From Watersipora subatra (taxonomy: Eukaryota; Bryozoa; Gymnolaemata; Cheilostomatida; Watersiporidae), in contig NC_088708.1 of assembly GCF_963576615.1 (NCBI RefSeq), forward strand, positions 65,140,672 to 65,204,671: a stretch of DNA of 64,000 bases, given 5' to 3'. Position 1 is the first letter of the stretch. Each line of letters begins with the position of its first letter. This document shows, in pieces, positions 3,906-63,748 of this stretch. A program made the translations under genes and the position numbers. The notes under the pieces were generated by a model, which searched no databases, was not told the DNA's origin, and saw only the letters and a program-made list of their open reading frames with translations.

Positions 3906-4200
3906 TTGGTAGTTTTTCTAAAACAAGGTATGATTAGCTCAGCAGAAAACTATGTTTTTTAGGGGTAAAAACAGCTTGCAATAAAAACTATCAAATGTTG
4001 TTTCAGTTAGAGACAATATTACACTATAAATTGTTCCTGGTTTTGATTACATGTATTTATTTAGTAGCCAGGTCTCTAAAACTATTCTCACTAATCACTT
4101 ACTTTTTCAGAACTTGATGCTGTGCAGGTCTATCAAAATGTTCTATAATATCACTAGCACTACCTCACCTAGATACCATGCAGGTCTATCAAAGTACTGT
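3906..4200. repeat. second copy of the 1-290 repeat, overlapping the end of a PAN exon
   Basis: Same repeat as 1-290, with scattered substitutions and small indels. Its right end overlaps the last bases of the PAN-domain exon at 4169-4423. A short internal duplication (GCAGGTCTATCAAA at about 4124 and 4181) is also present. The pair is best explained by local duplication inside gene A. Confidence 0.75.
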
Positions 4201-4423
4201 AGACTGCCACTGTTAACTGTAGTCACTCCTTCATCATCAGACCTCACACTGCTTACTGTACAAGTCTCCTCAGTTTTATGCTTGCTGATAGATCTACATT
4301 CAGATGCTATGCTGCTGGTAGCCAGGCAGGTAGACATGCAGGACCTTAAGTCAGGAGCATCTACTGTATATCCTGCTGCTGATAAGGTCTTCCCTCTCAC
4401 AGACTGCCAAGGTAGCCATAGCC
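4169..4423 (-). CDS. PAN/apple-like domain exon (gene A, second)
   Basis: Minus-strand exon bounded by an acceptor ending TTTTCTACAG and a donor TCTAG|GTGAGG. It is 255 nt long and enters and leaves in phase 1, as in exon-shuffled extracellular domains. The 84 internal codons contain the core cysteine spacing SCMSTC ... SEC ... ETC, typical of a four-cysteine PAN domain, which binds protein or carbohydrate. The outer cysteine pair seen in the other PAN exon is absent. The domain call is inferred from cysteine spacing. The link to the signal-peptide exon upstream rests on strand, phase and the lack of intervening gene ends. It could instead belong to a separate paralogue. Confidence 0.55.
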
Positions 4424-5072
4424 CTGTAGAAAACATTCTTTACACTAAGTGCATTGGTAGCTCAAACAGCTGACTCTCCTGACACCGGTTTGCTTAGCGC
4501 TACTAAAACCTTCAATATAAACAGAAATGTCTCTTTTCTGTAGCAAATGCAATATGCCATAATATGAACAGAATTTTTTTAACAGTACAAAGACAACTTA
4601 TGACATTAAGTTTTCATGCTATAGCACTAGTTTCCTTAAAGTTTATTGTTAAAACTGCAAATTCTTCAAGCAAAAAGAGATCTCCATTATGGAAATGTTG
4701 TAGGAACAGCAGAATTCGGACAAATTTGTTCTGCAGTTTCAGTAGTTAACTGGAAAACAATAATTTACAGATATTCGGCAGTCGATAAATCCTAATTGCA
4801 TTCAGTGAAAAAGGTCTGTCAATTAACTAAGTTTGTGGTATTTTAGAATAGTTTAGCTTCTAGTTTCCTTACAATGTGATTAAGTCCCTTTAGAACAACA
4901 ATTTGTAAATCTTTAATTTACATACCTAATGTTTTTTGCAGATATAATTGGTTTTGCATATACATAATTAACATTAAGTGTGTTCACTTGTATTCTTAAT
5001 GATATATTGCAAAACTTTTATTTTAACACCACATCACTCTATTTTTCAACCCTTTCCTTAGAGTGGCACTGA

Positions 5073-5102
5073 AATGAGGTTAAACAAAGGTTTAACCTCA
5101 TT
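5073..5102. repeat. perfect 13-bp inverted repeat
   Basis: AATGAGGTTAAAC and its exact reverse complement are separated by AAAG. The GGTTAAAC word occurs once more just downstream. Possibly a MITE relic or a simple hairpin. Confidence 0.7.
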
Positions 5103-8575: not shown

Positions 8576-8839
8576 CTGCACAAGCTGGTCTGATGCGTGC
8601 ATTCCACTCACTGTCCACTACTAGCATTCCTGTCTGCTCATTCTCTGCCAGCAACTCACAGTTGGTGCCTCCTCTTGTTGTCTTATAGTTGTAGGCAGCA
8701 CACAAAAATGAGGTTCGACTCAAACACAGTTCTCTACAACTGCTTCCACTTGCCACTGTCCTAACCTCAAGTTGACCAGAAGTGATGAGTGGTTGGAGTC
8801 TTCTACCATTTTCTTCTCTCCACTTACATTCTTGAGACT
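8576..8839 (-). CDS. PAN/apple domain exon (gene A, first)
   Basis: Minus-strand exon with a pyrimidine-rich acceptor (CCTTCAAACAG) and donor GTGCAG|GTGAGA. It is 264 nt long, phase 1 at both ends. The encoded domain starts ESQECKW, has SSCRELCLSR, SFLCAAYNY and TNCELL, and ends near RPACA. That gives six cysteines in the classic PAN/apple order, so three disulfides are expected. Joining to the upstream signal-peptide exon (phase 1 donor at 10465) keeps the frame and makes a secreted or cell-surface N-terminus. Family knowledge says PAN domains mediate protein or glycan binding; the ligand is unknown. Confidence 0.75.
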
Positions 8840-10464: not shown

Positions 10465-10549
10465 CAGCGGTGGCTAGCAAGCAAGAGAATGCTGAAAGCA
10501 TAGGAATTGCGTGAAACACCTTCATGGTTTACAGAGCGTTTAGAGTTAC
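10465..10549 (-). CDS. signal-peptide exon of gene A
   Basis: The exon starts after an acceptor TTAATTACAG with 24 nt of leader. The ATG is at 10525. It encodes 20 residues, MKVFHAIPMLSAFSCLLATA, a short positive N-terminus followed by a hydrophobic core and small residues, so a good signal peptide. It ends in phase 1 at donor CTG|GTGAGT. Gene B has a near-copy at 28413-28496, including the splice sites, and this paralogous conservation supports the exon. The next in-phase exon is the PAN domain at 8576-8839. An intron in the 5' UTR separates it from exon 1 near 15152. Confidence 0.85.
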
Positions 10550-11523: not shown

Positions 11524-13133
11524 TTAAATTTTGCCAACATAGTGCACAGTTTCTGATCTGAGTGTTATGAAGCTTATAATTACAAACTTCTCAAGAGCAA
11601 AAGTTATTTCATCTAAGCACTCATCACTATCAGGCTCTTCTGAGTCTGTGCTGACAGGTGTTATAGCATCATCTTCACTGCTGCTCTCTGGCTCAGCGGC
11701 CTTCTGGCGCTTCTTAGGCTTAGACACTACAAGAGAGGACAAAGTGCATGGCGGTTGTGAGTCCTCAGCTTCTTTGGTAGAAGTTAGTGTTAGTATGGTA
11801 GATTTTACTATTTTTCTCTTAGTAAACAGTTTTCTTGGTGGAGCTTTAGGTAGAGGTGGCAGTGGGCTGCTAGCTTCTGTGGATAGAGGAGATGCTGCTG
11901 ATGGAGCAGCATCTTCTAAAAGAGGTCTATCTGTAACAGAGGTAGATAGAAAATCTTGCTCATCAAAGATCTGAGTATTTAGTGGGCTAATACCAGTTTT
12001 GGTAAAACCACTGATGATGTTCTGAGGAGACAAGGCCTTTAGATATGCTTGACCACTTGTTGCTGCAAGATTGTATATGGTGACTGTTTGGCCTGGGTTT
12101 GCCAGCATCCAGTTGTTCATGAAGGTGTTGTTGTACAATTTGAATGGGCCATACACACAAACATTGAGAGGCTGTAAACGATGACTGCAATGAGGTGGAA
12201 AAGTTATAAGAATTACGCCATGTCTCTTAGCTAAATCTATAGCTTCACAAGACACGTGGCCGGCATGGTTATCAAGCAGCAGCCAGGTTTTACGCTCTGG
12301 AGAAGTGTTCATGTGTGAGATGAAGTGCTCCAACACACGAGGAAACAGTTCATTAGACATCCAGCCACTTGGATTTGCAAATCCTTTAGACCCAGGTGGA
12401 GAACCTGTCATCATATGATTTTTAAAGTGCATCCTAAGGAACACATATGCAGACAAAGACTCTGACCAGCAGAACTTATGCAACATACTATTGTTACTGT
12501 AGTTCCACGCTCTGCACTAACAATCTGTCCTAATTGTTTTATTCCTTTTTCTGCTTGCACCTTCTGTGGTTTCTGTACAGTGGAAACACCAGTTTACTCA
12601 AGATTGTAGATCCTGTCTGGTGTCAGCATGTTTGCACTGTATACTTCTTTTAGATTGGTAAAGAACTCTGACACAGTAGTTTTATTAAAAGCAGTGGCTC
12701 GACCTAAACTCGCAGCCTCAGGGGTTCTCAAACTTAAAGGTGGATTACGTTTGCGTAACAGATCCATCCAATCTTTCCCTGCTTGACCAGAAGTCTTTCA
12801 ACCTGAAAGCACTTCTTTTTCAAGATTAATTGCATAACCATGTGCTAGCTCTCGTGTTTTAGTGATGGACAAACCATGAAACATTTTTGAACAGTCTAGT
12901 ATGTAGAGACACAATACAGTTTCTTCTTGTGTCGTGAATAATGGGTTCCTTCTTAATGTTTTACTGTTTTCACCACTCTTTAGATAGCAAATCAGTGAAG
13001 TTCGTTTAATTCCCAATGTTCTATTGACTTCACTGACTGATTTATTGTTGTTTCTGACTTCATGTCTAGCAGTGTTAATTAGCTCAGTTGTATATGTAGA
13101 TGATGTTGTTTTCCGTTGGTAATTTCTAGGCAT
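11524..13133 (-). pseudogene. pogo-type transposase, inactivated
   Basis: The N-terminal part (13133 to 12798) starts MPRNYQRKT and has a psq-like helix-turn-helix with TLGIKRTSL. The middle (12797-12487) holds a family-typical block, NL-E-stop-TGVSTVQKPQK, where pogo transposases have a DETG catalytic block. The C-terminal part (12486-11524) has LLLDNHAGH and PPHCSHRLQPLNV, the rest of the DDE_1 nuclease, then an acidic Ser/Asp tail. The first catalytic Asp is lost beside a TAA stop, and the third is Asn instead of Asp in LQPLN. Other interruptions separate the blocks. The transposase cannot be active. Confidence 0.85.
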
Positions 13134-18045: not shown

Positions 18046-18179
18046 TCATCTGCTCCAGTTTCCTGTAGAACAGGCGCTCTCATTAACAACAACATCATAT
18101 GTAGCATCACTTCTCTCTGGTCTCTCATATAGGTGCTCATTGGCTTGCAAAGTTAGCTCTGTGTAGTGGCCTTGTTTAT
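18046..18179 (-). CDS. gene B cytoplasmic terminal exon, copy 3
   Basis: Acceptor AACCTTTCAG, phase 1 entry, 43 codons after the split Asp codon, then TGA. Starts KQGHYTELTLQANEHLYERP and continues with SDATYDVV. It has three tyrosines in SH2-type contexts (YTEL, YERP, YDVV). It pairs with the exon at 18757-18818. It is the farthest downstream of three terminal exons, so use of this copy needs skipping of the two upstream stops and poly(A) signals. The C-terminus (NESACSTGNWSR) differs from the other copies. Confidence 0.75.
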
Positions 18180-18756: not shown

Positions 18757-18818
18757 CAATTGACTCATTTGTCTTGTTTTTTGTGACATCACCATCTCCA
18801 GACATCTGGCTCCTGAGT
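18757..18818 (-). CDS. gene B juxtamembrane tail exon, copy 3
   Basis: 62 nt, acceptor AAAATTTTAG, donor CAATTG|GTTAGT, phase 2 in and phase 1 out. Encodes about 20 polar residues beginning LRSQMSGDGDVTKN and ending NESI. It has the same length and phases as copies 1 and 2 and as the gene C exon at 40555-40616. The basic/acidic composition fits the stretch just inside the membrane. Confidence 0.7.
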
Positions 18819-19635: not shown

Positions 19636-19769
19636 TCAAGTTTCCTGTGGAACAGACACTCCTGCGTGTTCATCAGCAACAACATCATATGTAGCATTAA
19701 TTCTCTCTGGTCTCTCATATAGGTGTTCATTCACTTGTAATGCCAATGTTGTGTAGTTAGTGTTTCCAT
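19636..19769 (-). CDS. gene B cytoplasmic terminal exon, copy 2
   Basis: Acceptor ACAACTTTTAG, phase 1, 43 codons then TGA. Begins GNTNYTTLALQVNEHLYERP, followed by INATYDVV, and ends VPQET. The first motif is YTTL rather than YTEL; YERP and YDVV are kept. It is an alternative 3' terminal exon to 18046-18179 and 21689-21840. The surrounding intron sequence is also duplicated, which shows the whole module was copied. Confidence 0.75.
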
Positions 19770-20562: not shown

Positions 20563-20624
20563 CAATCAAATCATCTGTTTTGTCTCCTCTGATAGCTCTA
20601 TCTCTCGAAACTTGGGTTCCGTGT
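20563..20624 (-). CDS. gene B juxtamembrane tail exon, copy 2
   Basis: 62 nt, acceptor AATAATTTCAG, donor GATTG|GTTAGT, phase 2 to 1. Encodes HGTQVSRDRAIRGDKTDDLI, which is basic then acidic. It is closest in sequence to copy 1 (22601-22662). A 90-bp direct duplication lies just downstream at about 20,390-20,560. Confidence 0.75.
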
Positions 20625-21688: not shown

Positions 21689-21840
21689 CTATTCATACCT
21701 ATCTGGTCTAGTTTCCTGTGAAACAGACACTTCTGTGTGTTCGTCAGTAACAATTTGATATGTAGCATCACTTCTCTCTGGTCTCTCATATAGGTGCTCA
21801 TTCACTTGTAATGTCAACTCTGTATAGTTAGTGCTTTCAT
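21689..21840 (-). CDS. gene B cytoplasmic terminal exon, copy 1
   Basis: Acceptor ACAATTTTTAG, phase 1, 49 codons then TAG. Begins ESTNYTELTLQVNEHLYERP and continues SDATYQIV, ending RPDRYE. It is six codons longer than copies 2 and 3, giving a fourth tyrosine near the C-terminus. Tyrosine motifs of this type are docking sites for SH2 proteins once phosphorylated. Strict ITIM spacing is met (YxxL or YxxV), but the residue at -2 is Asn-preceding Thr or Ala, so 'ITIM-like' is the safe term. Confidence 0.8.
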
Positions 21841-22600: not shown

Positions 22601-22662
22601 CAATCAAATCAGCTGTCCTGTTTCCTTTTGTAGCTTTATCCCTTGCCACTTCGGTTCTAAAT
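22601..22662 (-). CDS. gene B juxtamembrane tail exon, copy 1
   Basis: 62 nt, acceptor AATTTCAG, donor GATTG|GTCAGT, phase 2 in and phase 1 out. Encodes FRTEVARDKATKGNRTADLI, rich in Lys/Arg, completing the Arg codon split after the membrane exon. It is the first of three equivalent exons that the membrane exon can join in frame. Confidence 0.75.
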
Positions 22663-23552: not shown

Positions 23553-23718
23553 CTTTGAATTTGAATGCAACCAAAGATGAATGCAGTGATAGAGATAACT
23601 GCTAGTATAGAAACAGCGATGATGCCTCCAGTTAATAAACCAGTTATAAGTTGCTTAGACATCTGGTTAGCTTGAGAGGTAAATGAGCCATTCATTGATG
23701 GCGTTGTATAGTTGATAC
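23553..23718 (-). CDS. gene B transmembrane exon
   Basis: Acceptor TGCTTTTCACAG, donor CAAAG|GTATGA, 166 nt, phase 1 in and phase 2 out. The extracellular part begins GINYTTPSMNGSFTSQ, with two N-glycosylation sequons (NYT, NGS). Then a single hydrophobic span of about 25 residues (LLTGGIIAVSILAVISITAF ...) leads to CIQIQR. The orientation is type I, with the signal peptide upstream and basic residues after the span. The phase 2 donor matches the phase 2 acceptors of all three juxtamembrane exons. Read-through without splicing would give a different tail, so the splice is preferred. Confidence 0.8.
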
Positions 23719-25997: not shown

Positions 25998-26063
25998 CTG
26001 ATGTTAAAGTAGTAACTGGTACTATTGTAGTCTCATTAGATGATCGTTGTGTAGTAGTTAGTA
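25998..26063 (-). CDS. gene B Thr/Ser-rich stalk exon 2
   Basis: 66 nt, acceptor CACATTTTAAG, donor CATCAG|GTTAGT, phase 1-1. Encodes VLTTTQRSSNETTIVPVTTL plus TS. Nearly half of the residues are Thr or Ser, with one NET sequon, as in O-glycosylated mucin-like stalks. It aligns with stalk exon 1 (26450-26539). The weak AAG acceptor lowers certainty. As a symmetrical exon it could be skipped without frame change. Confidence 0.6.
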
Positions 26064-26449: not shown

Positions 26450-26539
26450 CTGATGTTAAATTAGTAGCTGGTACAGTTGCAGTCTCAGTCGATGATTGTC
26501 GAGCATCAGTTAGCTCATTGGGGGTAGTTGTGGTGGTTG
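26450..26539 (-). CDS. gene B Thr/Ser-rich stalk exon 1
   Basis: 90 nt, acceptor CTTTTTTAG, donor CATCAG|GTTAAC, phase 1-1. Encodes ATTTTTPNELTDARQSSTET followed by ATVPATNLTS. A mucin-like stalk is inferred from composition and one NLT sequon. It follows the signal-peptide exon in phase, so gene B as seen would have a short glycosylated ectodomain without a PAN domain. Confidence 0.65.
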
Positions 26540-26627: not shown

Positions 26628-27120
26628 ATAACCAACCATACAAGGTTGCATTGTCTCTATCCTACACCATATATTCATAACCATACAGAAGTAATAACCA
26701 ACATTACCATTTAATATAGACTCTATCTTATACCACAGGTTCACAACTATACAGAAGCCATAACAACCTTACCAGGTAGTATATTCTGTATCTTACACCA
26801 CAGATTCATAGTCATACAGAAAAAGTAACCAACCTTACCAGGTATAATGGTCTCTTTCCTACACCATCAATTCATAATCATACAGAAATAATAACTTTAC
26901 CAGGTAGTGAAGTCTCTATCTTACCTCACAGATTCACCAACATACAGATGTAAAACCCAACCTTACCAGGTGGCATATTTTCCATCTTACACCACAGGTT
27001 CATAACTAACCAGAGGTAATAACCAACTTTACTAGGTAGTATAGTCTCTATCTTACACCACAGATTCATAACTGTACAGAATTAATAACTAACCATACCA
27101 GGTAATATAGGGTCTTTCCT
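26628..27120. repeat. degenerate minisatellite, about 65-70 bp unit, about 7-8 copies
   Basis: Each unit resembles CCTTACCAGGTAGTATA, then TCTCTATCTTACACCACAG, then ATTCATAAC.ATACAGA and AATAACCAA. Copies differ by substitutions and short indels. On the gene strand every unit carries CTACCTGGTAAGGTTGG, a consensus-like splice donor. It lies in the intron between the signal-peptide exon and the stalk of gene B. Confidence 0.8.
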
Positions 27121-27287
27121 GCTTTTTACCGTTACACAACATAACTTGATGCATAAAGCACTGAGGTTCATGGTAACACTGAAATTTATGAAATTGAACC
27201 CTAAGTTTAAGCAGGTTTAGAAGAACTGATTAACATCCGATGTGAGAAGGCAAAAATTTTTTTATACAATGACTAATAAGAAACTAG

Positions 27288-27760
27288 CTGCGCAACCCAG
27301 CGTTTCCCGGGTAATAAAAAAAGTCTTTGGACAGACAATTGATTTGTATTTAACATATACCAACATTTGCCATTTCAACTTTCAAACTGCTTATCATGAG
27401 AAAAGTGTTTTGTGTAGCTGAAATAAATTAAGAGAGACAATAGAAACAACTGTAAAGGTTTTCCAACTATTCCAAAAAACTGTAACTTTTAAACTTCATA
27501 TCATGAGGAAAGGGTTTTGTGCAGGACAACTAAATTAAAAACATATAAAACTACTGTAAAGGCTTTCAAACCAGTGTAAATTTAAAACTTCATAACCTTC
27601 AGCGACGTATATCTTTTAATAACGTAGAGTGGAACCTCGGCTTTCGAACATAATCCATTCCATAAGGTTTTTTGAAAACTGAGTTGTTTGAGATCCGAAA
27701 CCATTTTTCCCATTAGAATAAATGTATACAAATTTTAATCTATTCCGAGGCGCAAAAACA
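27288..27760. repeat. interspersed repeat-like sequence(s)
   Basis: The left part has GCGCAACCCAGCGTTTCCCGGG, a phrase close to one common in animal interspersed repeats. From 27,628 comes GGAACCTCGGCTTTCGAACA with a partial inverted partner TTTTTTGAAAACTGAGTT, as in palindromic DNA-transposon derivatives. The assignment is by recollection of word patterns only. Confidence 0.45.
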
Positions 27761-27963
27761 ACTTCAGTAAAGTAATTTTTCAACATTAATTTTTACATTA
27801 TAAACTGTACTGTATACTACATATTATAAATAAAAATGGATAGATATAGATTGTGTTTAACTTTAATAAAAGGTTTTCTATTTATGATGATAGAAAAAGA
27901 AAAAAACAGAAGTAAACATTTCGAATGCTTTGCTCTTAAAATATCAAGAACATTAAAGGGTAA

Positions 27964-28175
27964 TACTATATATATACATAAATATATATATATATATACG
28001 ATGTATATATATACGATACATTAGCGCTGATAGACATATATATATACGATGTATATATATATGTTTATATATATACATTAATATATTAATGTATATATAT
28101 ATTAATACATATATTAATGCATATATATTAATATATCGTATATATATACGATGTATATATATACAATATATTAAT
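27964..28175. repeat. compound TA-rich microsatellite with ATACGATGTATAT units
   Basis: Alternating TATATA runs with interspersed TATACGATGTATATATAT words. Several are self-complementary and would cruciform readily. Confidence 0.85.
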
Positions 28176-28412
28176 ACAATGTTTTTGTGTGAAAACTGGA
28201 AAGGATGTATGCGTTATGTAGTATAAGCTATGTGTCGCAAGAGCTTTCATGGTCTTGTGGTTAGATAATTTGATTGCAACTCTGCGATCGCATTTTTTGT
28301 TAGGTAAAATCCATCGGATTGCTAAATTTTAATAGCTATAGCCGGAATGACACACAGATCCACATACCCCATACTTTGAGAAATATATAGATTGTAAAGA
28401 AATGTAACTCAC

Positions 28413-28496
28413 CAGCTGTAGCTAACAAGCAACAGAATGCTGAAAGAATTGCATGAAATACCTTCATGTTTAACTTTACACAGTGTTTACAGTTAC
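28413..28496 (-). CDS. signal-peptide exon of gene B
   Basis: Acceptor TTCTAATTACAG, a leader of 29 nt, ATG at 28467, and 18 codons, MKVFHAILSAFCCLLATA, ending in phase 1 at CTG|GTGAGT. This is two residues shorter than the gene A copy and otherwise nearly the same, with matching splice sites and flanks. It directs the product to the secretory pathway. The next in-phase exon seen is the stalk at 26450-26539. A PAN exon corresponding to gene A was not found. Confidence 0.85.
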
Positions 28497-29390
28497 CTGT
28501 AATTAGAAAAGTAATCACTCTTCTGAAATTTCATCAGTTATACAAACATTCAAAGGCTGTATTGAGTATGAACATACAAACATTCATAGGCCTGTAAATA
28601 TTCTAAATTTATATGAAAATATCAATGCTTAGATACAGTTCCTTGAAATCTGTTGTAAATGCATTTATATTAATGCACCATCTTTGAAAGTGATGTAAAT
28701 TTCCACACTTGTTTATTTTGCTATAAGTCATATGCTGCCAGTTTGCTCAGATGACCACAAATATGTATATTTTAAAGTTTGCAGCTGTCCACAAACACTT
28801 ATAGCTAGTACAGCTAAGACAACCACAAACAAGTATAACTGGCAATATAGAGTTGACCAAAGTAATGCATAGCTAGTAGCATCAGAGTGAGCTCAGGCTA
28901 ATATAAATGGTAGTTGGCACTAGTAACAGGTACTTGTAGTTAGAACCTAGCTGGTACTACAAAGATAAAAAGGAAGTTTTTAGATTTTCACAACCATCCT
29001 ACTAAGAGACTTTTTGATTGTGATAATTCATTCTAAAAATTGAATTTAAGATGAGAAGCATTTTGAAGAATCTATGAATAGTTTAAAATAACATAACACA
29101 CATTCAAATTTTGTGCATGACTAGCAAATATTAAGAGAAACAATTATTTTATCTTATCAAAATTAAATGTTCAACTGAGTTACATGATATAAAGTTTTTA
29201 CAGTTTACTGTTAGAGCCAGAAAGGTTTGTTGATGTCGATGTCAACTGAACAAGCAGTTTTTGTCACAAAAATGTGAGAATCTTAGAGAGCTGTTGAGCA
29301 GTCAGTACATGATGCTGACTGTGTATACAAAGCTAACACATGGTGGAAATAAAGCCACAGACTTATTACACTCACACATCCAGTACTTAC

Positions 29391-29500
29391 TTTTTATGTT
29401 GATTATTTTGCTGAGAAGTCATGAAGGTTATATAAAACTAGTGATCAATTGATGATTTATAATTACTGGACCTATTGTAGAGGTCAGCTCTGATGTATGC
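29391..29500 (-). promoter_or_regulatory. probable untranslated exon 1 / promoter of gene B
   Basis: A donor GTAAGTACTGG at 29381-29391 aligns with that of gene A. Flanking sequence (GACTTATTA.ACTCACACA, TGCTGAGAAG) is shared between the two genes. No clear TATA box was seen here, unlike in gene A. The 5' limit is not known. Confidence 0.4.
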
Positions 29501-30189
29501 TATATGCATAAGCATAAACAATCAATAATAATCAGCATAATAATCAGCTCATGTGCATGGGTCAACTAAAATACATTTTCTCTTATATCAATAGTCTTAT
29601 GCAATCACTGCTTCAATAAGCTCTTTTATTCTATTTTCTACTTGTAGCTGCTTACAAAGAGCGCAACTAAAAAATAATGGGCTAGCATAGTTCTAAACAA
29701 TACAGCTGAACAATTACAAATTTGGAGTTGTCACTACGAAATATATTAGTTGAAGATAACTCACGACTAAGACTGCACCGTTGATAAGTGTTTAGTTACA
29801 ATCTGTCATTAGCTACCATCACTTATATTTGCCTTTCTGTCCCAATAATGTGTTTCATTAAAAGGTATTTTTATTTATATCTTTGATATAAATGGTAGTT
29901 AGCGCTGATAGACATTGAATGCGGTTAGAGCTGGTTATAGCTGGTTATAGCTGGTTATACAGCTTTCTGTTTAAGCTGTTACTACACGAAATATGGCAGC
30001 TAAATTGATGGTAAAAAGGTCACTCATTACAAAAACACATTGAAGTAGTTTTTAGGACAAAAATGGATTACTTTAAAGAAATCTTATTTTCATAAAACTT
30101 ACAGTAGCAATGAGTTTTGCTGTAACAACAACTAAAATAGTACAAGAATATAAATCAGCCGTCTATCAGTACCTTTTAATCCAGTAATA
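29501..30189. other. upstream region of gene B, no gene
   Basis: Homology to the gene A upstream region continues to about 29,850. A short GGTTATAGCT triplet repeat is at about 29,928-29,958. No coding exon seen. Confidence 0.5.
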
Positions 30190-38730: not shown

Positions 38731-38912
38731 TTAAGCATACAGGTGATAGTCATCTGTTGACAAGTACACACTGTCATCAGGTTGCTCGGTAATAACTGGT
38801 GGCTGACGAAGTGTCCCAGACTTTCTATGGGAGTTCAGCGGCTTTTCATATACGTGGTTGTCAGCATTAGCAGGAACGATCTCTAAATAGCTCACTGGCT
38901 CCTGACCTTGAA
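38731..38912 (-). CDS. gene C cytoplasmic terminal exon with ITIM-type motif
   Basis: Acceptor GGTGTTTATTAG, phase 1 entry, 59 codons then TAA. Begins VQGQEPVSYLEIVPANADNH and continues VYEKPLNSH; the C-terminal part has SVYLSTDDYHLYA. VSYLEI meets the strict ITIM pattern (I/V/L/S-x-Y-x-x-I/L/V), which in vertebrate receptors recruits SH2 phosphatases. The order YxE(L/I) then YE(R/K)P, about 17 residues apart, is shared with the gene B tails. With the same exon phase, this indicates common ancestry. Five tyrosines in all. Confidence 0.8.
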
Positions 38913-39680: not shown

Positions 39681-39682
39681 TG

Positions 39683-40554: not shown

Positions 40555-40616
40555 CAATTGGCTGCTGACATCTGTCAGCTGGTGGTTCTGGTAGTTGGTG
40601 ATTCTCAGCTTTAACT
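40555..40616 (-). CDS. gene C juxtamembrane tail exon
   Basis: 62 nt, acceptor CTAATTTACAG-type (AATTTACAG), donor CAATTG|GTAGGT, phase 2 in and phase 1 out. Encodes VKAENHQLPEPPADRCQQPI. It has exactly the length and phases of the three gene B exons at 18757, 20563 and 22601, though the sequence is far diverged and Pro-rich. Confidence 0.65.
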
Positions 40617-41636: not shown

Positions 41637-41755
41637 CTTGCTAGGACTCGTCTATAGTATAAACAGGTTGCTATAAGAGACAAGAAGAAAAAAGCAGTAC
41701 GAACTGCTATGACAGCTATTAGAATAACTGCTATTACTTCTTTGTCATTTTTTTT
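41637..41755 (-). CDS. gene C transmembrane exon
   Basis: Donor TAGCAAG|GTAAGA in phase 2, matching the next exon. The hydrophobic run is EVIAVILIAVIAVRTAFFFL then SLIATCLYYRRVLA, a single span with basic residues after it and one Arg inside. The upstream border is uncertain. The acceptor CCATTAG before an A8 run gives phase 0, while gene B uses phase 1. An in-frame TAG lies just before it, and an alternative AAAG acceptor 16 bases on would restore phase 1. An indel in the A8 run or a wrong acceptor choice could explain this. Confidence 0.6.
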
Positions 41756-42025
41756 CTAATGGCTGAACAAGAAGAGAAGATTTAGTGTTAGATATTTACA
41801 ATAACAGAAAGTCAATGTAAGGAATCATTCAAACCTAGAAGCAGGCAGGCAATCAGTTTATATCTTAATTAGTTTATGAAAGTTTCACACCAGACTAGTA
41901 CCCTGGCAGTCTGGTGTGCCCCGAAAGATCTAAAATAATGGAATGTGAATAATTAGAGCAGATAGTAGTATGCCTGGCTGGTATAATCTTTATCCCACTC
42001 TCTAACCATAGCTTCAAACTGACTT

Positions 42026-45210: not shown

Positions 45211-45216
45211 TTCACA

Positions 45217-53770: not shown

Positions 53771-53852
53771 CTGGAAGGCTTCCTTTTTGAGGTGGGGCGA
53801 GGTCAGCACTTCGGGCCGTACCACGTCCAGAGCAGTTCTGCTGCTCTCGTGA

Positions 53853-54997
53853 TTACCACTCCCAAGGCGGAGAAGGGGTCTGCCCTACCACTTTTAAGGC
53901 AGGCTTCCGACTGTCCGGTCCAGTGGGAATGGTTCTCAGTGTCTGGGGTGAAGGGGGTTTGGGAGTCACCCTCCTACGCTTCGGGCTACGTTCTTGCCGT
54001 TTGCACGGAGGGGCGTAGGCTATATCCGGAACAAAGGGGCTGTCCAAACTAATCTCACCCAAGAACTGGTAATAATTCCATGTCACCACAGGTCCTTCCT
54101 GTACACGGATTTTCCTTGGCCTAGTCATTGCCAGTTGAGACCAGCCATCAGCCGTCGTCGAGTCCCGCAAACTCCTAGTATAATTCCGTATTTGCTTGGC
54201 CTTGGCACAGCCAGTTGTCGGGGCTACTGCTGTGGCCGCCCTCCGTTTCCCGAAGCCGGTTTGGTGTGGCGAGGGCAGTTCTTACGTACCTGCCCTGGTT
54301 AGCCACATCTCCAGCAAAGAGCAGCTGGCTGGCTCCTTTTCTCGACTGGGGCGTGCACCTACTCCTGGAGCTGCTCCACCTTGTCCGTGAGAGTTTGGAC
54401 CAGCCGAGCCAGTTGTCCTATGACATCGGTCTCGGCTGAGTTCACCTGGTCAGAGGTTCCTCTCTTCAGGACTCGCACCGAGAATAAGGTGGGCCTACGC
54501 TCGCCTCCCAAGATTTGGAGATAGTCAGTTCCTGCTTGTACAGCATCCGCCAGCGTGGTCGTAGGTACGGCCAACAGATGTGTCTGTTGGGCAGGGTCCT
54601 TCAGCAAGCTGCAGAAAGTCTCCATAGCCATGCTATTTCGTTGGCAATTCGGCAGGTCCCCGTATGCAATGCGTACCATCCTCTCTACCCCCATAGCATG
54701 CTCCTGCAGCGTTGTTTCCTCCTTTCTCTTAAGGGCGTTGAGTTGGCTCAGCCCCTGCCCAGCGGAATGTCCGAACTCTGCCCGGAGGGCATTGAAAATG
54801 GCCTCCTGATCCTTGGCTTGCCCACAGTCCTCAGCCTGCTTGCCCAACGCTTCCCGGAGATGCAATAGAGTCGCTCCTTGCATCCACTGGTTGGTGTCAG
54901 CTACTTCTGTGAAGCAAGCAATAAAATATTCTACATCTCCTTTTCCAGTATACTGGGGAAGCCTGAAGCGCGGCGCCGGTTCCTGAGCTTTCGGCAT
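53853..54997 (-). pseudogene. gag of the left Ty3-type copy
   Basis: Start MPKAQEPAPRFRLPQYTGKG at 54997. The capsid-like part has YFIACFTEVADTNQWMQGAT and LREALGKQAEDC, open to 54359. A zinc-knuckle remnant CWRCG-stop-PGQVRKNC follows in another frame (about 54,300). Then a Pro/Arg-rich region (SPKRRRVTPKPPSP). The right copy has no equivalent, so this is the only gag in the block. Confidence 0.75.
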
Positions 54998-55076
54998 CAG
55001 CAACACCCGCACTAGTGCCACGACTAGTCGGTCGGGTCCCAGATCAGCGCTCCTGGCTCTCCTGTTAGCCGCCCGG

Positions 55077-58000
55077 GCATGGTACAGACCGAAGTGCTGA
55101 CCTCGCCCCACCACGGAAAGAAGCCTTCCACGCCTCACGGAGAATGTCCTGGAAGACACCACTAGGGCGCAAGCCCTCGGCCGACAGCACTCCACCAGCT
55201 ATTGCCTCTCAGGAAAAGTGGAGGGGCGGCCCATCCAGTTCCTACTGGACACCGGATGCACCACCAATCTGATCAATAAGCAGGTATTTGATCGAGTGCC
55301 AGGGGCCGTGCGGGACCGACTCGAGGACAGTGACAGCCATGGACTATTGGCTGACGGATCACGGCTTCCCTTCTATGGAATAATCCATCTGACTATCTGC
55401 TTGAGGGATGTGAAGACGGAGGAGGTTTTCATAGTGAGCCGACTGAGCGAGGATGCCATCCTCGGATTGCCACTCTTCGTGGCTCATCAATGCGCTCTCT
55501 AGTTTGAGCAACCGGTGGTTCGGGTGAATGGCAGACAGCTAGTCTGCACGGACTGGCATGGGGGTTGCTCCAGAGCAAAGTGCAATTGATGAGGGAGGTA
55601 GTGGTTTCTGCCCGGACAGAGATAGCGATACACTGTCGTATCACCACACGGAACTATTGTCCCATGGGAATAATTGAGGAATTTCCCGACAGACCTCTCG
55701 TGGCCAGTAGCCTGAACCAGCCGAGACCCAAAGGACAAGTCATCACCCACTGTATGAATACTACGCAGTGGCCGCTGACTTTTCGGTCCAGAGCCAATAT
55801 CGGCACGTACACGGGAGTGGAGGCCCCGCAGATCGAAGAGGACAAACCCTTACTGTGTGACGCCAGTCTGACTTCAATTAATGAAGTGCTGGCTCAACTT
55901 GAGGAATTGTTCCAGTCGGCCCGGCCGAACTGTAAGGACAAGGGACAAACGTCCAGGTTTGCAACTTTGCTGCGTCGGTATGCCGCCGTATTTAGTACGA
56001 GTGATGACGACGTAGAAAGGACCTCGGAGGTAGAACATTCTATTCTACTTAAGGAGGGTACTCGGCCAATCCGACAACCCCCTGACAGATTTGGACCAGA
56101 AAAAGAGACAGAGGCCGAGAGGTAGTTCTAGGAACTGCTCAAACGAGGATTCATTGAGCCTGCCGGAGGAGCTTAGAGCTCCCCCGTAGTGTTGGTCCGG
56201 AAGAAGGACGGGAAATGGTGCTTTTGTATTGATTACCAGCGTCTCAACGCCGTCACGGAGCAAGATGCCTGCCCGTTATCTAGGATCGACGACAGCCTGG
56301 ATGCCCTGTCTGGCAGTCGCTATTTTAACACGCTCGATCTGATGAACGGGTACTGGCAGGTGTCCCTGGATGCAGAAGCGCAGGAGAAGTCAGCCTTCTC
56401 GACATGGTCTGGGTTGTGGAAGTGGAAGGTCTTGCCTTTCGGACTGACGTCTGCCCTCACCACCTTCCAAAGACTTATGGAATGCATCCTACATGGCTTC
56501 CCCTGAAGAACGCTGCTGTTATATCTAGATGATATTATCGTCATCGCCCCAGATTTTGATACGCATCTACATCGGCTAGAAGAGGTCTTCCAGAGACTCC
56601 ACAAGGCTGGACTAAAACTGAAGCCCTCCAAGTGCAAGCTACTACAACCTCAGGTTCGCTACCTGGGGCACATAGTAAGCCAGAACGGAGTCTCTACAGA
56701 CCCCGACAAAGTGGAGGCAGTAGCGAAGTGGGAACTCCAAGGATTCCTCTAGACGGTCGGTTATTACCGACAATACATCCCGGAGTTTGCCACTCTTGCA
56801 CACCCCTTGCACCAACTGACTGCAATGGGAGAACCCTCGAGATAGACGGAAGAAGAGCAGGCCGCTTTCGACACGCTGAATGAAAGCATCAGCACCGCCC
56901 TAATCTTGGGCTATCAGGATCTTCAGAGGCAGTGTATCCTGGACACAGGCGCCAGCGGATGTGGAGTAGGTGCCGGGCTGTCTCAAGTACAGGAAGGCTG
57001 CGAGAGGGTCATTGCCTACTACAGCAAGACATTCACTCCCTTGGAACGCAATTACCGCATCACTCGACAGGAGCTACTTGCAGTAGTGAAGGCGGTCAAG
57101 CACTTCCCGTCATAAATGTCTAGCCAGGAGTTCCTCCTGCGGACGGACCACGCGTCACTCCGGTGGCTATGCCGGAGGAGGAAACCCTCAAACCAAGTAG
57201 CCTGGTGGTTTGAGATCTTGGCGGAGTTCCGCTACATCCTGGTGCACCGGTCAAGGACTCGCCATGGGAATGCGGATGGATTGAGCAAGCACACCTGTGA
57301 GGACTGCCGGCAATGCGCGAGCATTGAACAGAACGGACTGTGCCCCTCACGGAAAGAGCTAGCAAAGGAACAAGGACCGTTAGCCGCGTGGGTGCTGACC
57401 AGTTGCCTAGATGGAACTTCCGCCCTTGATAGGGCGAGATCAACCCTGGGCAATGTCGCATACCCCGAGGGCCGGCCAGCAACCCGGCCAGCACGGGACT
57501 CCCGCCCCAACAGTGGCGAGATTTAACATGGGTGCCGGGGCTCCTGGAGGGGCTATCAGCCCCACCAAGAGTGACAGGACCAAAGGGCGAACTAGCAAGG
57601 ACACAGGCTACCAGTCAGGGACCAAGTGGCCATCATGTACCGTGCCATCGTCACTAGGGAGGAGGTGCCAGCAGAACACCTGGAGCTCGGGAGCAGAAAG
57701 CTGGACATCCTGCATCACATGCACGGTTCTCTGTGCATACGACAGAACGGCGTGCTGGAAGCACGCGTAGCCCCGCAGGGCCACGCTAGATGGTGCGCCA
57801 TCTGCGCCCCGGCCATGTGGAAAACCACAGTGTGGCAAATGCACGCCCTGGCCACTCTTGGGTGGGAAGGACGATAGGTCGCCTACAACTGACCTGGTAC
57901 TGGCCCGGGCTGACATCCACAATCATGCGGCTCATCAAGAGTTGCGAGGTGTGCCAGGCCGCAAAACATGGAGGGACAAAGGCGGCCGGAAGAAAAAGGA

Positions 58001-58820
58001 GGCTCTCTGCAGAACAACCCTAGCAGAAGGTTGCCGTGGATCTGGTAGGGCCATTTTCTGTCACACCAAAGGGGAACAAGTGTGTACTGGTTCTTACCGA
58101 CCACTTCACCCGGTAGCAGGACGCATTGCCACTACCTGACGCCACGGCCCCGGTGGTCACCAATGCACTGAATGAGCGGGTCTTCTGCTACCTGAGATTG
58201 CCCAAGCAGATCCACCCAGACCAGGGGGCACAGTTCAAGAGCCAACTGATGGCCGAACTGTGCCAACTCTGGAACATAGAAAAGACCCACACGACTCTGT
58301 ATCACCCACAGGCAAGTGGAGTCATGGAACGGAATAACCGGGGACTCGGGTATTCTTTGAGGGCGCTGCTCTTGACTCGGGGATAGGACGAGTGAGACCT
58401 ACTGCTTCCCTAGCTGATGAAGGCGTACAGAGGCACCCCCACTCCGCGACTGGAGAGACGGCCAACATGCTTATGTTTGGACGGGAGCTGAGGTTGCCAG
58501 ACCAGCTTGAAAGTCACCCCCACCGACTGAGTTCTTTCCTGCCCACAAGCACGCTCTTGAGGTGCAGCAAAGGCTGCAGGCAGTGCACGAGGCGCTCCGG
58601 CAAAGCCGGATGAAGGTGCGACAAGAGGATAAGAAAGAACCACCACTGTACGCCCCAGGCAACTGGGTATGGCCCATGAACAAACGCCGAAGACGAGGAG
58701 AAAATCCCAAGCCACAGGCAAAGTTCGTAGGACCATACCAGGTCCTGAAGGCTGGGGGAACCACACGTATCTGGTGGAACCGCAGAGGCAGTCTTCCATC
58801 TAGAGCGAGGGAAGGCTGAA
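55077..58820 (+). pseudogene. pro-pol of the right Ty3-type copy, broken
   Basis: Homology to the left copy starts at about 55,077, just 5' of protease. Protease: FLLDTGCTTNLINKQVF and DAILGLPLFVAHQ (to 55502). RT: VVLVRKKDGKWCFCIDYQRL, NTLDLMNGYWQVSL, active site LYLDDIIVIAPDFD intact. RNase H: LDTGASGCGVGAGLSQ, TDHASLRWL, HGNADGLSKHTC. Integrase: HHCC finger around LIKSCEVCQAAK, LVLTDHFTR, HPDQGAQFK, VMERNNRG, so all three catalytic acids are readable. Stops near 55,500, 56,125, 56,506, 56,751 and 57,115 and shifts in integrase kill it. The left copy has lost catalytic Asp residues that this one keeps. Confidence 0.88.
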
Positions 58821-59262
58821 GCCTTATCACGTTTGCCCGGAGAGGTTGGGGCAAGCCCCAGTCACTCTGGAGCCAAGGAGGGTCCAAACATGAAGGGCGC
58901 TCGACCCAGGAGGCATGAGAAAAGGCAAGAGGAGGGCAGGATAGATCATGTACCAAAAATGCCACCCCCCAGCTGGGAAAAGTTGCTATTAGAGGCTGCA
59001 AAATCTGCTATAAAGAATCGAGAAGAGGAGGTAACTCCCGGGGAAAATTCAGCCGGACCGGAGAAAGAAGGAAGTCGAGGACGCCCTCCTAGTTCTGAAG
59101 AAGTCAATCTGGCCACACGGAATAAAGTTCCGGGAGAACCGGAATCAAACCCGGTAGAGACCAAAAAGACCGCAACACCAGATCCCATCAGCCCGGCACA
59201 ATCTGACGCCGGCTCGGACAACCAGGAGGCCGGATCAATACGGAGATGGTATATGCTACTCA

Positions 59263-60424
59263 ATGGAATTAACGGAAAACGGTTTGGAGGTCGCGCGGGA
59301 AGGAGGTAGAACGGTTCTCACGGACACAACCAAGGATTTCTTATTAAAGCACTCAATTTCTCTGAACGACATCAGAGCGCTGGAAAATATGGAGAGCAAA
59401 GGCAACACATCTCTACAGGATTTACTGACTTCGGTCACAATGAGTTTGAAAGAAACTGGAGAAGGAGTGGGTAGGCCAACACCGGCAAACGTGGTGACCT
59501 ACAAAGGGAGTAACATGGAGAGAGACGAGGCACGACGGCCAGATTCTGCCGTGTTGGAAATTACGGAGGAGGGAGCAGAGGCGCTGCTGGATGCCACTCT
59601 GACAGAAGACAGCGTAGAGGAGTTACTGAATGAAGTTATGCCGGAACCAGTGGAAGAGGAGTGCCACGTGGCTGCTGTATGCACGAAGAAGAGACAAATA
59701 AGTCCCCCCTTCACCGGCGTTGTCTTCTTCTCCACTGGCCATTGCCGTGAGGGAAAGCACACCCGTGAGGCAGCTGGAGTCAAAGAGGTTCAGGCCATGG
59801 AAGAAGACCATCATGAGGACCATTAAGTACCTGTCTTTCCGGACTGTGGCACGGGCGGAAGAGCAGGTACAAAATGAGAGTTGCCGGATCTGCCAGTTCA
59901 CAACCAGCACCTGGCGGATCCAAGTTCACATGCTGCAACACTACGCCGTGTTTGTGTGCTCCTGCAATTGGCAGCATGTGTCAAGGGATCAGACGTTACT
60001 ACACCATGTGACTCACCAGCAAGGAGGAGTGGAGCCGGTGGTATATCTGGTGGATCACGACTCTTGGGAGCGGTTTTTCCAGGAGAACATGAGGGGCTCT
60101 CTGACGATGGCTGCCTGCACACCCACTACCAGAAGAAGGAGACATTGCAGCCCCCGGAGAGGAGCACAGCGGGCTAGGACACCACCGTGCCTCCCAGCCC
60201 GGATCCGCCCAGCTTCGACCAGGAGGAGCAGGACGACCGTGGAGCCCGCCGGGTCACGCACTCTGGCCGAAGTGATAGGGCGGACTCCGGCCAGCCAGAC
60301 CCTCTCGCAGACGCAGCGCAGCCAGGCCCGGTTGCTAGCGCAGGACGCACAGAGATGGACGAGGGCTGCTGAGACTATGCAGGCCACCCTGCGGCAGGGA
60401 CACCTGGAGAGCCGGGAACGCTAG
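59263..60424 (+). pseudogene. 3' ORF of the right Ty3-type copy: acidic region and two C2H2 fingers
   Basis: 59263-59826 begins MELTENGLEVAREGGRTVLT and includes the acidic EEGAEALLDATLTEDSVEEL. The frame changes near 59,720. The second part, to 60424, has CRICQFTTSTWRIQVHMLQH and FVCSCNWQHVSRDQTLLHHV. All eight zinc ligands are the same as in the left copy despite many other differences, which argues the fingers were under selection. The Arg/Thr-rich C-terminus follows. It could be a nucleic-acid-binding accessory protein. The alternative, a captured host zinc-finger fragment, cannot be excluded. Confidence 0.65.
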
Positions 60425-60540
60425 CTACTATTGGAGGAAATAGAGCGCCTCCGCTATGGAGCTCGCCAACATGAGGCTCTGGCACAGCTAGTCCTTAAAC
60501 AGGATGTGAATTGGAGACCCTAGTCACCAATGGGGAGGAG

Positions 60541-60888
60541 TGTGGGGTAGATGGCGTCCCCTTACATTTAGCCAAGCCAAGCCGATGTACAGCCGAGTCA
60601 AGCATAGTCAAGCCAGAGCCGTACTGACTGAAGATCAAGCCGAGCTGGACCGAGCCGAGCCGGGCCGAGCCGTGCCGGGACTAACCAAGCAGAACAGGGG
60701 CAGAGTTTAGCAGCTATATAAGCCCGAACATTTGTCTAGTAGAGCAGAGCTTTTTTGGGCCTGTTCATTGCTTGTCACTTGATTCATTTCTTGTACACCT
60801 TGATGAACTAAGCAGAAATATATGTATTGTGCTCATGCACGAGTCTTGTACTAGTGGAGGAAAGTGACGGTCGCACAAAACCTTTACA
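60541..60888 (+). repeat. 3' LTR of the right Ty3-type copy
   Basis: 348 bp, TGTGGGGTAGATGGCGTCCC to ACAAAACCTTTACA, preceded by polypurine AATGGGGAGGAG. A TATA box GCTATATAAGCC is at about 60,712. It is the inverted partner of 43587-43956, with fewer CCGAGC units. Confidence 0.88.
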
Positions 60889-63610
60889 ATATATTTCATT
60901 TTCTTATTTTATCTAGCCATGAATCCTATTATTATGTCTTCTGCTACTGACATCATTAATATTTTATTTGTCCTTTTTTGCAATTAGTAATATTTTCCTG
61001 TTTTTGATTTTGCTATGAACATGTAGCAACATCTACATATACCGGCTAACATCTTTATTGTTAGCCGATAGTACAGGAAATTTTTTTTATGGAATATCCA
61101 TGGTGACTTCAGAAAAAGGCTGTAGCTCATCTTGCTTTTATTTGGTTGTTGTAATTATGGCCAAGGTTTCTTTACATCAATATCATTGCTATCACTAAAT
61201 TATAAATAAACATTCCTATCCAGAAGTTGTCTGCTCTTTAAGCATGGCTAGTTGCTCTTACTGGTGTGATTTACTTTTAGCTCTGTAAGCTGTTTGCAAT
61301 TAAAGATTGCTCAAGTACGCAACTTTCAGTTTGAATTTTAACTTGGCAACTGAAACAATAAAAATAAAAGAAAGATGTAGAAAGAAAGTGAGCTATATTT
61401 AAACTGAATGTTTCACATCATTTACTTATGCTCAACTGTTCTCTAGGTGTGTAAAACACACAAAAATGTTACAATCGTCACTTGAATCTATGCAGTATAG
61501 CGTGATATGAGTAAGAAGATAATCAGCATTTTTAGATGAAGCAGAGGTCAAGGTCACCTACAGTTGCTATGAGTTTACTTCATGTGATAACATGGTGAAT
61601 AAAAATAATGTGCTAACCAGGCTCAATATTTGATATTCTTTAAATTCTCTCGTAGCTAGCGGCTCATCTAAAAATTTTGAACATTTAATAGGAAAGGAAG
61701 TTTGTAACGATCCGTTTGGTTTTAAAACCTGGTTAAATGTGGCAACAGAAAAATAGCCTTTGATCCTGAACATTATAGATGATAAAAGAGTCTGCAGCAA
61801 GTGATCACGGACAGCAGAAAAGCAAGTGGCTTTGAACGAAGATGTCCACTAATATTTGTTACTCCTTGGTTTCCTACAACAGCGACATATCAAATTAGTT
61901 TGTTAGTTAAAGCGAATGATCTTAAATTAGTTTTATCCGAATGTTCAAGGCCGTAGATTGCATGACGGCTCATGATAGTCACCTCATTTAGCCCAACTTT
62001 TGGTCCACCTATAATAGTTTTTTCAGCAACTGCCTCAGAGTTTTGTCTGCAGCCAAGTTATAACTAGCCACCATTTTACAAAGTTTGATACAGTCAGAGC
62101 CTTAGTGTAAACTTCCAACGTTGAAAAAAAGCAAGTTATTAGTCTCGGAACCTGGCAACTGATACATTGAGAACTTGCTTTTTTTCAGAGACTATATAAG
62201 TAAAGATCGTCAATCATATCTCCAATCTACCTGCAGCATTTTTCTTTTATCAAGATGAGCAAGATGGGCAGTAATAAAACAACACATTGAACAAAATATT
62301 TTGTTTCATAGTTATAATTCATTTTCCAACTTACTCACAAATAATGGACTCGAATGATCTAAAGTCTGTTTTTGTTTTGAACATGTGGACATGTTTGATG
62401 AGGCGACAAAAAGAGCAACACTAAATTATACTCATTAAATCACTTCTTTTTTATTAGGTCAAAAAATCTCAAGTTTCCATAATTTTGTCAAAACCTTGTT
62501 GAGAAGCAAATTTTCTGTCAGCTCAGTTTAGAGAAATTAAACTATTTAAAAATGTAATAAGCAGCAGCTTTTAGAGGTAAATTGACAGCATTTCAGAATT
62601 ATATCTACTTGTAACAATACTATTGTGATAATTTGTTGTTCAGTAATGATTTTTATGTTAAAAGCAAAAGATTAGTTCTGGAGACAAAAGCACTCATGAT
62701 GCAAGCTCTAAGCTGCGACATGCGGACATGATTTTTAAGCAAAGTTATAAATGTATTAATGAAATACGATATCAATTCTGACAATTAGCCAACGTGTGAA
62801 TGCATAAAAAAACACTTCTATTGCATATCATCTTCTAAAGTGCACAAGCCCGCATTTTTTGTTAGACAAATTGCAAACTTAGAAATTCATCAATAAAAAT
62901 GAGCTATTCTCGAAAGTCATTTTTTAAAACCTATGAACACATGTTTTGCTTCCACGAATTAGGAATTTTAATGAACGTTTATTTGATAATGATAATGTGT
63001 ATTTAATAAGGATAAATAAAAAACGTCAACTTTGTTGTGTTTCTGCTAATTTAAACTTGTTCCTCATTTATGCTAGTTTACTAACCTACATGGAGTTGGC
63101 AAAGGCTTAGCAAAAGTTCTTCACAATACAAAGATTGATTGCTTGATCATCAGCTCTGTTCACTGTCAGCTGAATGTAAGTTCTGCGTTTTACGAGATGT
63201 TCATGCCCATGTACATACAGTATTCATGTACATACAGTGCTCATGTATATACAGTGCTCATGTACATACAGTGATCATGTATATACAGAGCCAATCACTG
63301 CTGTATAAAATTTGTTTTTTTGTATGCTAAAAATGTATTATTGGAACTGGAAAATGTTTTATTTGAAGAATTGTTTTATTAGAATGTATTGGGAAAATTG
63401 GGTCATTGATAGAGTAACTCCCGTGTTGACTGCATACAGCTGAAAGTGGCCTAAGAAAGATAACTCCAAGGTTATAGGTGCACTTAAAACAAAATTAATA
63501 TGTATTTTTATACTTTGTTTTGGAATCTAAAAGTCTCTTTAGTAAAACATCTACTTATGGCAGACTTTCCTGTTTAGGCCAAAGTACGGAGTCCGAACTC
63601 TTATATTTAC
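60889..63610. other. no gene recognised; possibly an intron of gene C
   Basis: AT-rich. Small pieces of note are a hairpin-like pair around 62,120-62,190 (AAAAAAGCAAGTT... and AACTTGCTTTTTTT) and the minisatellite at 63205-63288. If the Ig exon at 63611 belongs to gene C, this and the mobile block form one intron of more than 20 kb. Confidence 0.45.
63205..63288. repeat. 17-bp minisatellite TCATGTACATACAGTGC, about 5 units
   Basis: Units alternate CATGTACATACAG and CATGTATATACAG, with AGTGCT or AGTGAT linkers. Confidence 0.9.
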
Positions 63611-63748
63611 CTTCTACGATTTCAGTCTCATCAGAAATATAACTACCCCCATTCATAGCTTAAAGGGTATAGACTCCATAATCTTGTGTTGTCAGTATAG
63701 TTACTTCAAGCGTTACAAAATACATGTATGTACCATTTTCTCCTCTAT
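63611..63748 (-). pseudogene. Ig-like domain second-half exon with an in-frame stop
   Basis: Acceptor ATTCATTTTAG, donor GAAG|GTAAAT, 138 nt, phase 1-1. The frame reads DRGENGTYMYFVTLEVTILT then TQDYGVYTL, a stop, and AMNGGSYISDETEIVE. The pattern of a strand E block, D-x-G-x-Y, then x-A-x-N-x-x-G, is that of an I-set Ig domain F-G region. The TAA lies at 63660-63662, where a Thr/Cys-type residue is usual. The exon is on the gene C strand and would supply an extracellular domain. The stop means a pseudogene, a non-used exon or a sequencing error. Confidence 0.5.

Follow-up and report, generated by a model that had tools for sequence, protein, structure and literature searches.

A tandem array of putative PAN receptors with doubled tyrosine-motif tail exons in the bryozoan Watersipora subatra

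A 64,000-nucleotide stretch of the Watersipora subatra genome (contig NC_088708.1, here C1, positions 65140672-65204671 of a 783.7-Mb assembly in 239 contigs; hereafter the window) was found to sit inside a tandem receptor array, which occupies C1:65.006-65.282 Mb and comprises eight minus-strand units or unit fragments (U1-U8). The array probably encodes type I receptors, most with two extracellular PAN domains, from a family that has expanded in this bryozoan, namely PAN recognition receptors with alternative tyrosine tails. The gene structure, the array, the doubling of the tail exons and an internal deletion in one unit were read directly from the sequence. A preliminary description of the window had proposed that small type I receptors with tyrosine-motif tails form a clustered family, laid out as three genes (A, B and C). 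The family was borne out by 10 tail exons on C1 and by 46 PAN1 and 41 PAN2 matches, and the exons described for A and B were recovered. The frame of the C membrane exon and an immunoglobulin (Ig)-like exon did not hold as described, and neither did an Ig receptor type or the pattern of a conserved tail.

The unit map was made with tblastn over the window plus a 100 kb flank on each side. Splice borders, phases and lengths were checked by script for 17 exons, and signal peptides and membrane helices were assigned by eye and hydropathy. Identical exon borders were seen repeatedly across U1-U7, each unit being part or the whole of one chain. The complete chain, from signal exon through both tails, is present in U2. 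Unit A is U5 and B is U4, U3 consists of a signal exon, exons Y and W and then the C fragments, and in U1 tblastn detected PAN1', PAN2', a C-type membrane exon, a 71-nt exon and the C tail. U8 is an additional set of PAN1, PAN2 and X exons at C1:65.006-65.014 Mb, known from genome searches alone. Across the units, 6 signal, 5 PAN1, 5 PAN2, 5 membrane, 8 62-nt and 9 terminal exons were read, the signal exons of U6 and U7 having been recovered by an exon scan. Border or frame defects among these were the PAN1 donor, an 11-residue deletion in PAN2 and the acceptor and frame of the second tail, all in U6. Among the stalk exons, that of U7 has a GC donor and an additional stalk-like copy in U2 contains a stop codon. 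The presence of exons with the same borders in neighbouring units, together with a PAN2 match behind 40 of 46 PAN1 matches genome-wide, indicates that the exon set is not due to chance. Flanking sequence ruled out three independent genes in the window, and A, B and C are not three whole genes as first described; A is the 5' part of a unit, the remainder of which lies to the left of the window.

The exon order of A is signal, PAN1, PAN2, X, Y, W, Z, Thr-rich stalk, membrane and tails. Its exons within the window are as follows.

10465..10525, minus strand: A signal-peptide exon (MKVFHAIPMLSAFSCLLATA), phase 1 exit; counterparts in U2, U3, U4, U6 and U7
8576..8839, minus strand: A PAN1 exon, phase 1-1; Pfam PF00024, E 5e-6
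4169..4423, minus strand: A PAN2 exon, phase 1-1; Pfam PF00024, E 1.3e-5

Phase 1-1 PAN exons had been described in A. Two were found, with AG/GT borders, and the hidden Markov model (HMM) check proposed for them was positive for both, with PAN_1 scores of 26.7 bits for PAN1 and 25.4 bits for PAN2 against a curated Pfam cut-off of 21.4. Both exons thus combine a score above the cut-off with apple-type cysteines, as expected of a PAN/apple module. Six cysteines are invariant in all 5 aligned copies of PAN1, and three are invariant in the PAN2 alignment. The AlphaFold models of PAN1 and PAN2 were too weak for use (predicted local distance difference test, pLDDT, 46 and 53), and PAN1 alone gave no match against the PDB at E<=1. 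The signal exons of A (10525-10465) and B (28467-28413) match each other, as had been noted. The ectodomain exons mostly meet at phase-1 junctions (X also joins the stalk directly), so that modules can be removed without a break in frame, as exemplified by B. The full-exon model of A is open, at 711 aa with tail 1 and 716 aa with tail 2, the W start used in it lying one residue early relative to the annotated U1 border. Shorter models without Y, W and Z are also open, at 515/513 aa in U2 and 508/513 aa in U5. For X, the first member gave no Pfam family, and six members gave one match, to YpzI at 0.019. A multicystatin-like identity for X (PDB profile E 7.5e-6) was rejected, as three weak repeats had been summed (independent E of at least 1.6), and was taken as chance.

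Genome-wide, PAN1 gave at least 46 matches at E<=1 (39 at E<1e-6), of which 6 were on C1 and 40 on contig C7, PAN2 gave at least 41 (6 on C1 and 35 on C7) and X at least 66, counts for these large families being lower bounds. A same-strand PAN2 was present within 12 kb downstream for 40 of the 46 PAN1 matches. An X exon lay within 5 kb of PAN2 in 30/41 cases, within 10 kb in 33/41 and within 20 kb in 38/41, a spacing that took in 40 of the 66 X matches, with fragments and weak matches excluded. The PAN1-PAN2-X array on C7 extends over approximately 7.25-8.62 Mb, with outliers at 13.1-13.3 and 22.2-23.7 Mb, lies mostly on one strand and is far larger than the C1 array. In the 15 kb of C7 read by eye, neither a membrane exon nor a tail was recognised. 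A general PAN_1 scan of the genome gave at least 85 matches (among the best 150 of 431 candidates), and further PAN genes therefore exist.

The preliminary description had also singled out tails built of a 62-nt exon and a terminal exon with tyrosine motifs. Indeed, four exons of exactly 62 nt were found in the window, three in B and one in C, each with a terminal exon. The cassettes of B are listed below.

22601..22662, minus strand: B cassette 1a, 62-nt exon, phase 2 to 1
21689..21840, minus strand: B cassette 1a, terminal exon (NYTEL, YERP, YQIV)
20563..20624, minus strand: B cassette 1b, 62-nt exon
19636..19769, minus strand: B cassette 1b, terminal exon
18757..18818, minus strand: B cassette 2, 62-nt exon of the other type
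18046..18179, minus strand: B cassette 2, terminal exon (HYTEL, YERP, YDVV)

Both cassette types occur in U2, U4, U5 and U6 (the second being broken in U6), and B has 1a, 1b and 2. In FastTree trees the type-2 exons separated from the rest regardless of unit, with support of 0.999 for the terminal and 0.997 for the 62-nt exons, and this split across units indicates that the tail doubling predates the unit duplications. Each cassette enters in phase 2, shifts to phase 1 and closes with a stop codon, so that the cassettes cannot be used in series and would be mutually exclusive if used. Either tail is in frame in the models of U2, U5 and U4, and the doubled cassettes suggest alternative signalling tails. 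Their interpretation as leftovers of separate genes is less likely, given a single membrane exon per unit (U1, C, U2, U4, U5 and U6) and the recurrence of the doubling in U2, U5 and U6. The genome-wide tail search that had been proposed was positive on C1 only: one B tail exon gave 11 matches representing 10 exons, every one of them minus-strand and within C1:65.0256-65.2365 Mb (11/11 candidates scored), and no further B-type tail match was found in the genome at E<=10 beyond the C1 array.

Among the A/B-type tail exons the first tyrosine was kept in 10/10, the second in 9 and the third in 7 (two C-type tails being outside this count), and the YxxL, YxxP and YxxV tyrosines were conserved in both cassette types. 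Motifs were counted over 11 tails, the broken second tail of U6 being left out. The strict immunoreceptor tyrosine-based inhibition motif (ITIM, [SIVL]xYxx[ILV]) was present in 4/11 (U2_1, U7_1, U1 and C), within the window in C alone (0/2 in A and 0/3 in B), TxYxx[VI] was present in 1/11 and YxxP in 10/11. The corresponding activation motif (ITAM, YxxL/I x6-12 YxxL/I) and hemITAM (an acidic pair before xYxxL/I) were found in 0/11. With strict ITIM in 4/11 and ITAM in none, the ITIM/ITAM identity first ascribed to the tails is not supported for most of them. The functional case for the tails would rest on conservation of position, not on motif density.

Selection was estimated as the ratio of nonsynonymous to synonymous substitution rates (dN/dS), using our own Nei-Gojobori counts pooled over non-independent pairs. 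Left out were U1 (too divergent, its tail being compared solely with that of C), the U4 signal exon (length), the U6 PAN2 and type-2 exons (deletion, broken), the U7 tail (used in the trees alone) and U8. Pooled dN/dS was 0.35 for the signal exon, 0.41 for PAN1, 0.31 for PAN2, 0.48 for the membrane exon and 0.60 for X, and in the tails 0.70 for the type-1 62-nt and 0.47 for the type-2 terminal exons. The B terminal exons 1a and 1b gave 0.27 and 0.35 against type 2. Together with the higher tail values considered below, this pattern points to an ectodomain under purifying selection, with constraint weaker or unclear in parts of the tails. Between U2 and U5, identity was 88% for PAN2, 77% for PAN1 and 73% and 84% for the terminal tail exons, so that the tail is not the most conserved part as had been suggested. 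Likewise, ectodomain turnover on a conserved tail was not supported as the main pattern, because the PAN-PAN-X module recurs at 33/41 PAN2 matches while B-type tail matches are confined to C1, and the dN/dS values run in the reverse direction; what stands of it is the loss of PAN in B.

Relative to its neighbours, B is an internal deletion derivative, as judged from the following features.

28394..29882, minus strand: B 5' flank and signal exon, 76% identity to U2 over 1525 columns
28413..28467, minus strand: B signal-peptide exon (MKVFHAILSAFCCLLATA), phase 1 exit
27587..28394, minus strand: B PAN1/PAN2 loss site, approximately 0.8 kb versus 7.9 kb in U2
27120..27313, minus strand: B second loss site; U2 carries X, Y, W and Z between the matching stretches
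26450..26539, minus strand: B Thr-rich stalk exon, phase 1-1; relatives in U2, U5 and U7
25998..26063, minus strand: B second stalk-like exon, a partial copy of the first with a weak acceptor; may be skipped
23553..23718, minus strand: B membrane exon, phase 1 in, phase 2 out

The 5' flank and signal exon of B also share 71-74% identity with A (15613-14564 and 10887-10458). Neither PAN nor X, Y, W or Z was matched within B by tblastn or alignment of the units, and its frame is open with each of the three tail cassettes. A 66-bp tandem repeat at 26620-27110 aligns to the sequence surrounding the 3' end of Z in both U5 and U2. The Thr-rich stalk exon was confirmed and the stalk-only form of B stands, but its status as a separate ectodomain class was replaced by internal deletion, on the jumps in the alignment with U2. 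A membrane exon ending in phase 2, as had been described, was confirmed in B; the membrane exon of C is out of frame. Upstream of B, an 18-bp minisatellite occurs in 73 copies (window 30218-31529), with a matching array upstream of U2.

For C, three exons were placed in the window.

41637..41762, minus strand: C membrane exon, a copy of the U1 exon; frame broken in the window
40555..40616, minus strand: C 62-nt exon; U1 counterpart 71 nt
38731..38906, minus strand: C terminal tail exon, 93% identity to U1 over 57 residues

The U1 copy of the membrane exon (C1:65273.9k) is open, and C is a copy, with broken reading frame, of the back half of U1, the neighbouring annotated PAN receptor. U1 corresponds to an annotated W. 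subatra 'uncharacterized protein' of 685 aa (P0001), residues 17-685 of which are collinear with C1:65280807-65271619, with the start codon at 65281980. The annotated protein begins the C-type terminal exon slightly earlier than modelled. When the U1 region was scanned for signal exons, the candidates were mainly of low complexity and did not include the annotated exon, which was later located from the protein. U1 lies in the same array as the window units and follows the same order of PAN-PAN-X-Y-W-Z, membrane and tail; it differs in having one tail seen, a distinct signal peptide and no Thr-rich stalk, whereas A/B-type units have two tail types.

Further repeats and insertions were observed in and between the units. 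Behind PAN2 of A lies one additional feature.

1..276, minus strand: second copy of the intron flank behind PAN2, 81% over 281 columns; PAN2 exon absent but for its very end

In U7 (C1:65056281-65057048) the last 12-14 PAN2 codons are repeated in ten rows behind PAN2, and these repeats and the flank copy represent a tandem array arising from an exon end. Transposon insertions lie between units at 11524-13145, 31787-37628 and 43500-61000, which by eye we take to be pogo-like, Ty3-like with repeated ends, and Ty1-like open reading frames between inverted Ty3-like stretches. The sequence TACATGTA occurs 26 times in the window versus 2 expected from base composition.

The Ig-like exon near C was placed as follows and is not counted with the receptors.

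63611..63748, minus strand: Ig-like exon relic (I-set C-terminal half), in-frame TAA; one of five local copies

The other half-exon copies lie at C1:65213.0k, 65297.5k, 65302.4k and 65315.2k. In all 4 copies read, Leu replaces the Ig Cys, and 1/4 has a stop. Four copies fall inside duplicated blocks, and pooled dN/dS over four copies, the fifth being left out, was 1.08. In the Ig HMM check that had been proposed, the best match stayed under the cut-off (one other copy, resembling I-set at E 7e-4), and no Ig family match at E<=1 was found in the short U2 model or in P0001/U1. The Ig-like exon is a separate decaying local repeat, with nothing linking it to the receptors. It was rejected as part of receptor C, as the annotated C-type U1 has no Ig exon.

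If the array encodes PAN recognition receptors with alternative tails, the PAN-bearing ectodomain would bind a ligand, either a microbe or the allotype of an adjoining colony, and receptor clustering would lead a Src-type kinase to phosphorylate the tail, on which SH2 proteins would dock. Alternative terminal splicing would pick the tail and alter the output, and ectodomain-less members such as B may act as ligand-independent modulators. Several points weigh against this reading. The gene models were drawn from genomic sequence alone, function is proposed by analogy, and the modelled A, B and U2 proteins were not found among 5.8 billion predicted proteins (in one of the searches, among the best 7996 candidates), whereas U1 was, as the one protein recovered with the A model. 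U6 and U3/C are broken, U7 lacks two of its three tail tyrosines, has the GC donor at its stalk and shows one tail, and U8 has no tail match. The W exon was placed in five units, but outside U1 its single matches are weak (E 0.002-0.27). Tail constraint is weak in the type-1 terminal (dN/dS 0.89) and type-2 62-nt exons (1.04) and between B terminal exons 1a and 1b (0.98). The core YxxI/L/V count exceeded that of shuffled sequences at p<0.05 in only 4/11 tails, and in the PAN exons positive selection was not indicated by pooled dN/dS.

Part of this evidence would also suit a mostly dying duplicate cluster, in which U1 works, the other copies decay and their tail cassettes, those of B included, are left over as relics. 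The broken U6 and U3/C, the missing ectodomain of B, the tail losses of U7, the near-neutral type-1 terminal exons (0.89) and the recovery of U1 alone as an annotated protein are all consistent with such decay. It is nevertheless unlikely, as A is open over approximately 710 aa with either tail and U2 over approximately 515 aa in the shorter model, PAN2, PAN1 and type-2 terminal exons have pooled dN/dS of 0.31-0.47, and the tail doubling persisted through several unit duplications. It is quite improbable that the genes encode ordinary receptors for adhesion or development, or endocytic receptors in which YxxL/V serves as an AP-2 sorting signal and not as an SH2 docking site. YTEL, YQIV and YDVV can be read as YxxPhi sorting signals no less than as core ITIM-like motifs, and the scarcity of strict ITIM (4/11) and lack of ITAM and hemITAM (0/11) would agree with sorting, but YxxP is retained beside YxxL/I in 10/11 tails, and copy-rich arrays with pseudogenes look more like recognition loci than like single-copy developmental genes. 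A paired-receptor cluster with swapped ectodomains, with PAN in one gene, a stalk in another and Ig in a third, is largely refuted and very improbable: A and B do differ in PAN while sharing promoter region, signal exon and tail, and both C-type units have Ig-like copies upstream, but the five local Ig copies, with a stop in 1/4 read and dN/dS of 1.08, and the PAN-PAN-X ectodomain of the annotated C-type U1, which has no Ig exon, argue against it.

We therefore retain the array of PAN recognition receptors with alternative tails, and consider its genes candidates for immune or self/non-self recognition. A more speculative and rather doubtful extension is that the C1 array and its larger C7 relative form a bryozoan recognition complex of PAN-based allorecognition or immune receptors, with one ectodomain wired to two outputs by last-exon choice and B-type members tuning the signal. 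If true, a colonial recognition system would have been built independently, with PAN replacing Ig. The loci C1:65.006-65.282 Mb and C7:7.25-8.62 Mb are thereby named for work on polymorphism, contact-zone expression and fusion or rejection.

Genes for allorecognition have been described in a cnidarian and in a tunicate. In Hydractinia, the Alr ectodomains are Ig-like, whereas those of W. subatra contain PAN. Otherwise Alr resembles the W. subatra array in its clustered type I receptors with tyrosine motifs in a colonial animal (for the receptors as outlined in PMC12065747). Colony fusion, often among kin, has long been studied in bryozoans (PMC11686985, PMC12018476), and fusion of related colonies has been reported (PMC11686985), which makes allorecognition a natural hypothesis for the array, as is anti-microbial recognition. 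By title and abstract start, no bryozoan allorecognition gene appeared among the matches listed from the fusion literature, and no PAN receptor cluster with tyrosine tails among those listed from the literature.

The best functional analogue appears to be the fester co-receptors (FcoR) of the Botryllus schlosseri fuhc locus, which are clustered type I receptors whose tails contain ITIM, hemITAM or core YxxI/L/V motifs, and whose oligomorphic loci are reported to exchange ITIM and hemITAM through alternative splicing (PMC12065747). FcoR and the W. subatra array share clustered type I receptors with tyrosine tails in a colonial invertebrate. The FcoR ectodomain consists of Ig, sushi and C2 Ig domains, whereas that of W. 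subatra is PAN-PAN-X with no Ig match at E<=1 and hemITAM in 0/11 tails, and an allorecognition role has been worked on for FcoR, whereas the W. subatra receptors are known from genes alone. In Biomphalaria, PTC1 (GRC) and PTC2 are lophotrochozoan clusters of tandemly duplicated single-pass membrane genes, proposed as recognition receptors (PMC7494358, PMC10875847), and in this organisation resemble the W. subatra array. PTC2 is described as lacking homology outside gastropods and any known domain other than the membrane segment (PMC10875847), whereas W. subatra has PAN, and the main texts on these clusters never use the words tyrosine or cytoplasmic (PMC7494358, PMC10875847). The array is thus of a known kind, that of clustered invertebrate type I receptors with tyrosine tails, and is new in its PAN ectodomain, its phylum and its doubled tail cassettes.

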